64,000 nucleotides of DNA from Planctomycetota bacterium (GTDB lineage: Bacteria; Planctomycetota; Planctomycetia; Planctomycetales; Planctomycetaceae), in contig JAURQH010000031.1 in NCBI GenBank assembly GCA_030836185.1, positions 186,001-250,000 of the forward strand, read 5' to 3'. The notes beneath the pieces are model-generated. The model was not told the DNA's origin. It did not search any database and saw nothing but the letters and a program-made list of their open reading frames with translations. Positions within the stretch are counted from its first letter, which is position 1, and the number at the start of each line of letters is the position of its first letter. This document shows positions 30,068 through 31,875 of this stretch, in pieces. A program made the position numbers and the translations under genes.

Positions 30068-30883
30068 TTAGTCTTCATCCTCTTCGATTTTGTAGCGATG
30101 CTGAAAACGACGCTTGGATGGGATTTTTATGACGATTGCTTTGGAGGGTGGGGCGCGGGGAACTCCTCCTGCTTTTTCGACGGGTGTGAGTAGCTCCAGT
30201 TTTCGCAAACGAATTTTTTTACCGACGTTGATGAGTTGATTGATCTGCACGCAAGAAATGGCGAAGTTCAGATTTTGAGCACCCTCCAAAGAGGAACTAT
30301 TTACTCCGACCACTTCTCCTTTGAAGTTTAGTAACGGTCCACCACTGCTACCGGGGGAAATGGGGGTGCTGGTTTGTAACCAGGTGCCATCGAGCTTGGG
30401 GCCAAATTGTTTAAGCTCACTGCCTTCTCTGATGCCACTCACAATCCCCTCGCTGGCGGTAAACGATAAGCCTTGAGGCGCACCAATGGCCATTGTTTTG
30501 TCACCCTTCCGGGGAAGCACAATCGCGACTGGTAAAGCGGTCAATTTTTTGATGGTTTCAATTTTAAGCAATGCTAAATCGAAACCGGTGTAATGGGCGT
30601 TCCACCCCAATACTTTCGCGGTGGACTTGTCGGCAAATGTGACAGTGGCTGTTTTGGAGTCGCCCACCACATGGTAGTTCGTAACGATCCATTTTCTCTC
30701 GGTATCCACCACAAAGCCGCTACCAATTCCCTGGCTTCCATCTTTGTAAGTGACATCAATTCGTACGCAGGCTGGTTCAGTCCGCTCGATTAAATCGGCT
30801 ATGCTTAACTCGTCTGCGAGCAGTTCTTTTGTCGAGATGAAAAAACAAAGCAACAGGAGGGAATAACTGGCTGTTGTGTTCAT
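30068..30883 (-). CDS. secreted trypsin-like serine protease (S1C/HtrA-like, no PDZ)
   Basis: A 271-aa exported protein with a signal peptide (about 1-23). The chymotrypsin-fold catalytic triad is visible: His71 in VTNYHVVGD, Asp102 in TGFDLALLKI, and Ser180 in SPGSSGGPLL. GSGFVVD before the His strand is typical of HtrA/Deg. There is no PDZ domain; the C-terminus is a basic/acidic tail (IPSKRRFQHRYKIEEDED). It probably degrades or senses misfolded envelope proteins. The frame continues open after its TAA stop without a proper start codon, so the true C-terminus is in doubt. Confidence 0.87.
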   Translation of the reverse strand: MNTTASYSLLLLCFFISTKELLADELSIADLIERTEPACVRIDVTYKDGSQGIGSGFVVDTERKWIVTNYHVVGDSKTATVTFADKSTAKVLGWNAHYTGFDLALLKIETIKKLTALPVAIVLPRKGDKTMAIGAPQGLSFTASEGIVSGIREGSELKQFGPKLDGTWLQTSTPISPGSSGGPLLNFKGEVVGVNSSSLEGAQNLNFAISCVQINQLINVGKKIRLRKLELLTPVEKAGGVPRAPPSKAIVIKIPSKRRFQHRYKIEEDED

Positions 30884-30932: not shown

Positions 30933-31403
30933 TCAGCTTAACGCAAGTTGATTAGTCAGGAACTCGGTGACTCTTTGTGGGCTGACAATTCCCTGGATTC
31001 TTGCATCGAGGTCGATGATGGGGACATGACGACAACCGCTGACAGCCATGACGCACAATGCTGATGCCGAGGCGGCAGAAGTGTGGACATAAATAGGGTT
31101 GGCAGTCATGAATTCAGAGACGGGGCTGCCGCCTAGAGTATCGATGTTTGTTCCGATTTATAACAGGGCGTCTGTTTCTGAAAAGACTCCCACGAGGGAA
31201 CCTCCCGCTTCGATCATCAAACATGAAATATCGAGAGCAGAAAGTGTTTTGATGGCGTCTCGGACAGGAGTCTCAGGAGAAATTGTTGTGTATGGGCGGT
31301 GTTGGATCGTCAGTACCGATTCCTCCGCGAGTGATCTTTCGACCGGGTCACAATATTCTTTCGGGTCATAGTTGGCGAGTGGATCCTGGAATTCTTCGAT
31401 CAT
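30933..31403 (-). pseudogene. CBS-pair protein gene interrupted by an in-frame TAA
   Basis: From ATG 31403 (AAGGAG 6 bases upstream, one base after the stop of the preceding CBS gene) the frame runs to TGA 30933, 156 residues, but codon 82 is TAA (31158-31160). Before it comes the first CBS repeat, ending in GSLVGVFSETDALL; after it the same frame resumes with IGTNIDTLGGSPVSEFMTAN and a complete second CBS repeat ending RVTEFLTNQLALS. The intact length equals that of the CBS neighbour (156 aa). A single base change (for example AAA to TAA) would explain it. If translated as read, an 81-residue one-repeat protein results. A sequencing error cannot be excluded. Confidence 0.75.
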
Positions 31404-31404
31404 C

Positions 31405-31875
31405 TCAAGCTCCTTCTCGATTATGTAGATGGGGTGTCCCGCCAATGCGTTGAACCATCACTTGTTCCGGGAAATGGTCGGCAATATATTCCAACATGCT
31501 TCGCTGGCCCGTGAGTCCAGCAAGCTGGCCTTCCTCATTGATTACGATGATAAATCGTACGTTGTGTTTTCGCATTAATTTGAGAACATCAACGATAGGG
31601 GCATTTTGTTTGACAGTCGGCCAGTTATGAGACATGACCTGTGAAACCGGGGACCCGAAGTTCGATTGACTTTCGGCCAGCAACCTTACGAGTTGGCTTT
31701 CTGTGAAAATGCCAATCGGTTTGCTGTCTGCATCCACCACAATCGCACATCCGAGCCGCTGTGTTTTCATTGCTTCGACGACTTCGGCGATGGAGGTGTG
31801 CGGAGAAACGATGACCGGATCTCTTAGTGGAAGCGAGCAGACTTGCTCTGCTTGTAGGTTTTCTTGTAGACCCAT
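31405..31875 (-). CDS. CBS-domain pair protein
   Basis: A 156-aa protein made of two CBS repeats: residues about 15-75 (DPVIVSPHTSIAEVVEAM, CAIVVDADSKPIGIFTESQL) and about 80-145 (VSQVMSHNWPTVKQNAPIV, IVINEEGQLAGLTGQRSM). Such stand-alone CBS pairs bind adenosine nucleotides and regulate partners. The C-terminus HNREGA overlaps the translation signal of the next, interrupted CBS gene, whose ATG lies one base after this stop; the two were probably made together as subunits of one assembly. Target unknown. Confidence 0.87.
   Translation of the reverse strand: MGLQENLQAEQVCSLPLRDPVIVSPHTSIAEVVEAMKTQRLGCAIVVDADSKPIGIFTESQLVRLLAESQSNFGSPVSQVMSHNWPTVKQNAPIVDVLKLMRKHNVRFIIVINEEGQLAGLTGQRSMLEYIADHFPEQVMVQRIGGTPHLHNREGA

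Follow-up and report, generated by a model that had tools for sequence, protein, structure and literature searches.

The window analysed here, a 64,000-nucleotide stretch from a planctomycete genome, carries two adjacent genes for proteins with two CBS domains each, CBS-A and CBS-B, followed downstream by a gene for a trypsin-like protease. All three lie on the minus strand; the strand of CBS-B was absent from the preliminary description. The features are listed in Table 1. CBS-B had been described as cut by one in-frame TAA after which the frame resumes in register, and translation from 31403 to 30933 confirms this: 81 residues are followed by the TAA (31160-31158), 74 further residues in the same frame and a TGA.

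Table 1. Features of the CBS-A, CBS-B and protease genes (positions are those of the window)
Feature	Position	Strand	Description
CBS-A	31405..31875	minus	intact 156-aa two-CBS protein; TGA ends 1 nt before the ATG of CBS-B
Shine-Dalgarno sequence of CBS-B, AAGGAG	31410..31415	minus	6 nt before the ATG
CBS-B	31403-30933	minus	two-CBS frame with in-frame TAA; predicted product of 81 aa, then 74 codons in register
CBS1 of CBS-B	31161..31301	minus	residues 35-81, Pfam CBS match
Codon 77 of CBS-B	31173..31175	minus	Thr; Arg in 14/14 aligned orthologues
Premature TAA of CBS-B	31158..31160	minus	codon 82; Lys/Arg in 14/14 orthologues
First in-frame start after the CBS-B stop	31107..31109	minus	ATG, residue 99; 48 nt downstream, without Shine-Dalgarno sequence
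CBS2 of CBS-B	30957..31121	minus	residues 95-149, Pfam CBS match, beyond the stop
Trypsin-like protease up to its stop	30068..30883	minus	271 aa; Pfam Trypsin_2 at residues 54-194, before the stop
Second premature TAA	30068..30070	minus	codon 272 of the protease; Glu in the single orthologue (L055)
Protease frame past its TAA	29561..30067	minus	open; 3-keto-disaccharide hydrolase domain absent, present in L055

The second CBS repeat noted beyond the stop has a Pfam match of its own. When the TAA is read through, the protein matches PF00571 with 57.3 bits in two stretches, both over the gathering score of 24, the single repeats scoring 31.5 and 28.9 bits. The family profile also hits CBS proteins of known structure, among them 3ddj and 2rc3, and the predicted structure of an intact orthologue (mean pLDDT 87.6, from an alignment of 14 sequences) has two CBS-like repeats, with residue 82 inside the final CBS1 helix, which spans residues 76-83. 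The stop lies at the end of CBS1, directly between the two Pfam matches, and costs the protein CBS2 and 75 of 156 codons, counted from the stop onward. The N-terminal segment is conserved, with an EFQDPLENYDP-like orthologue consensus. Start, Shine-Dalgarno sequence and coding sequence had all been described as looking preserved; AAGGAG and the ATG are indeed intact, and the same Shine-Dalgarno sequence also precedes the orthologue ATG in loci L054 and L055, but within the coding sequence the invariant Arg77 has been lost. CBS-B has no match in the plasmid collection, and a plasmid origin was rejected on this ground.

Orthologues of CBS-B were searched for in 99 genomes, namely 98 relatives and the window's own genome (G000). 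Uninterrupted orthologues were found in 14 relatives at 41-93% identity, and an internal stop occurs only in the window's own genome. The uninterrupted orthologues in two genomes of the same genus, those of the nearest relative, a sister species (G002, locus L054), and of a genus mate (G001, locus L055), share 93% and 77% identity with the read-through frame, and third-position changes predominate both before and after the stop; because of these identities and the changes on both sides, the interrupted frame is judged to be more than a chance reading frame. In the alignment called for by the preliminary description, position 82 is Lys in nine and Arg in five of the 14 orthologues. Since these orthologues are uninterrupted and carry a basic residue at the site throughout, the comparison indicates that the TAA is a derived state. 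Natural splitting of the gene is ruled out within this sample, all 14 orthologues being single frames.

The comparison with L054 gave dN/dS values of 0.070 before the stop and 0.060 after it; values were taken from L054 comparisons only, dS being saturated (value -1) in several of the L055 comparisons. Both halves thus remain under strong purifying selection relative to the nearest relative, and because dN/dS is still low in both, the lesion is young. The 14 intact orthologues, the basic residue at the site and these ratios together uphold the earlier view of a recent nonsense lesion. With L055 used for polarisation, CBS-B has 12 synonymous and four nonsynonymous changes of codon on the window branch, the stop being counted among the latter, and 13 and four on the L054 branch; amino-acid change is therefore not faster on the window branch than on its sister, and no decay is yet seen in the sequence besides the stop and one substitution. 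That substitution, R77 to T, lies five codons before the stop and is the only departure at the 27 columns that are invariant or nearly invariant among the 14 orthologues. With the overall rate not raised, it is the sole hint of relaxed constraint after the lesion. If the part of CBS-B behind the stop has evolved neutrally since the stop arose, the neutral phase occupies at most about 5-31% of the window branch, a range that varies with the dS value taken and with the share of the six post-stop differences counted towards that phase.

Low dN/dS beyond the stop also bears on the proposal that the stop is suppressed, some full-length protein being made by readthrough and the stop merely lowering expression. 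Such a role has been proposed for bacterial in-frame stops in general, with purifying selection around them taken as a sign of readthrough, as outlined in PMC7918605. The CBS-B ratio after the stop, far below 1, carries that signature, but a young stop predicts a low ratio equally well. None of the 47 Rfam tRNA matches in the genome (47/47 inspected) has a stop-codon anticodon, both release factors, RF1 and RF2, are found with scores above the NCBIfam cut-offs, and TAA terminates 23 of the 59 genes of the window's genome that passed the filters described below; reassignment of the stop codon was rejected on these three grounds. RF1 and RF2 both read UAA. RNA folding around the CBS-B stop is no better than that of shuffled sequences (z -0.19), so that a recoding structure was rejected as well. 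Readthrough of the CBS-B stop is accordingly rated very improbable. CBS-B resembles the selected in-frame stops outlined in PMC7918605 in having its stop in frame and a dN/dS well under 1 before and after it, and differs from them in that its stop is specific to one genome, no suppressor tRNA was found among the tRNA matches, and the neighbouring gene is broken.

CBS-A adjoins CBS-B in 14 of 14 orthologue loci (L025-L038), and this constant adjacency marks the two genes as a conserved module. The equal length of the two products, 156 aa, to which the preliminary description had pointed, is correct but says little, because the two are paralogues of only about 21% identity and the CBS-B orthologue in L055 has 152 aa. 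No NCBIfam model scored over its cut-off for the tandem. CBS-B is like the stand-alone two-CBS proteins (Bateman modules, PF00571) in its two repeats and its length of about 150 aa, and differs from them by the conserved N-terminal segment and by the tandem arrangement with CBS-A. The comparison thus points to a conserved, unnamed CBS-pair tandem, which is possibly a heteromeric nucleotide sensor.

The same adjacency would suit an arrangement in which an 81-aa CBS1 piece and a CBS2 piece re-initiated at ATG 99 assemble with CBS-A, the more so as the stop falls exactly between the CBS matches and CBS-A lies 1 nt upstream. Re-initiation at this ATG, put forward earlier as that of SEFMTAN, is nevertheless unlikely, because the codon is 48 nt away from the stop, is without a Shine-Dalgarno sequence and begins four codons inside CBS2. 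In a reporter study of Escherichia coli and Haloferax volcanii, termination-reinitiation was almost abolished at about 20 nt, according to PMC10666635. A split CBS-B is found in none of the relatives, and the stop-free L054 gene has a near-identical stretch with the same ATG, so that nothing there looks to have been acquired for re-initiation. Two cooperating half-proteins are for these reasons given next to no credence.

The protease gene (30883-29561) is the next gene downstream of CBS-B, on the same strand and after a gap of 49 nt. Its premature TAA was missing from the preliminary description, which also did not mention that the nearest relative has deleted the gene or that CBS-B has lost Arg77. 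The orthologue in the genus mate (L055) is a single 652-aa frame with Glu at the TAA site, and it ends in a 3-keto-disaccharide hydrolase domain. In the sister species (L054) nearly all of the gene is deleted: a remnant of 25 residues matches, and a search of that genome with the protease at E 1e-30 gave no match. Identity with L055 is 78% before the stop and 64% after it, a difference in which effects of the domains are inseparable from decay. The truncated protease might still work, because the Pfam protease domain lies wholly before the TAA.

With two in-frame TAAs in neighbouring genes, the stops could be thought of as a joint attenuation device, readthrough by near-cognate tRNAs keeping trace amounts of full-length CBS-B and protease. 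If true, this would explain why both frames have stayed open and why CBS-B has stayed under selection; it is nonetheless regarded as a barely credible reading.

Whether the CBS-B stop is real was weighed against the background of internal stops in the genome. Both TAAs rest on one assembly, a draft of 107 contigs that is 97.94% complete, and the CBS-B TAA could have been introduced in error during assembly or consensus calling, or could be the allele of a minor strain in a metagenome-type assembly, the real gene being intact; in favour of this, both halves of CBS-B look selected and no frameshift accompanies the stop. The bases compared were 1,074,403 of 5,160,223 in the window's genome, 518,712 in the sister species and 58,150 in the genus mate; loci L056, L057 and L208 did not enter the analysis. 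A first pass gave 88 stops in 58 of the 132 sister-species ORFs with matches, nearly all of them in antisense or spurious ORFs. After this noisy pass, filters for non-overlapping best frames, third-position bias and end effects were added stepwise. The final pass covered 59 sister-species genes (24,302 aligned aa) and left six stops in the window's genome, four near alignment ends and two internal. An internal stop at C7:223354 (window 37354) was discounted as an artefact of a query ORF whose start had been placed too far upstream, the position being 17 nt past the end of a DUF1501 gene (37337). A clean internal stop against the sampled part of the window's genome was thus seen in CBS-B alone, and no frameshift-like breaks were found across the 59 genes. 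When eight genes of the genus mate (3,245 aa) were compared with the window's genome, clean internal stops occurred only in CBS-B and the protease. The reverse comparison, with 59 genes of the window's genome, gave six stops in the sister species (five internal, in three genes) and two frameshift-like breaks; the internal stops lay in roughly the first 80 codons or inside a partial match of 71 aa. With three of 59 genes flagged for internal stops in the sister species, a background rate of zero is not certain.

Against an error in the sequence stand the second substitution-type stop in the very next gene, with no clean stop or frameshift-like break in 59 other genes, and R77T as a further lesion within CBS-B. 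Two independent errors in adjacent genes, one of which is deleted in the sister species, are improbable. Since the lesions of CBS-B and the protease are rare in the sample and lie side by side, local loss of selection fits better than random error, and an erroneous or minor-strain TAA is considered unlikely, though less so than any of the bypass readings.

The explanation that we consider probable is that nonsense mutations have recently arisen where an operon is eroding at its 3' end, and that CBS-B is thereby in an early phase of pseudogenisation. Strand and spacing suggest that CBS-A, CBS-B and the protease belong to one operon. CBS-B, as the second gene of a tightly spaced Bateman pair, would have gained its nonsense mutation recently, in the lineage of the window. 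Because its start signals remain, the predicted product is a protein of 81 residues that stops at the end of CBS1 and is without CBS2. The fold of a CBS pair normally arises from the packing of its two repeats against one another, so this product is probably non-functional. The same erosion would have reached the protease, through its own nonsense codon and loss of the C-terminal domain in the window and through deletion of nearly the whole gene in the sister species; because of these two losses, the 3' end of the operon appears to be dispensable in this clade. CBS-B would then be the latest casualty on the branch of the window. The intact state of CBS-A, its conserved partner, counts against reading CBS-B as a pseudogene.

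In its single in-frame stop, kept register, intact orthologues and still visible purifying selection, CBS-B is like other recent unitary nonsense pseudogenes of bacteria, and no essential difference separates it from them; here two neighbours have been struck, one of them deleted in the sister species. A literature search found nothing on CBS-domain pseudogenes in Planctomycetes, the papers on planctomycete CBS-domain proteins being judged by title. Early pseudogenisation of CBS-B would be ordinary early gene decay that matters little by itself and is usable as a dated example. Within one genus, erosion of this operon end can be seen at three stages: the protease gene is complete with its three parts in G001, truncated and cut by a nonsense codon in the window, and almost wholly deleted in G002, and in the window the upstream CBS-B would now also have been struck.

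A separate feature of the draft assembly concerns two tRNA-Leu genes, each of which is present at the ends of two contigs (C2 and C86, C18 and C31; L194, L195, L198 and L199). The assembly breaks at these genes, which possibly reflects integration sites or strain variation.
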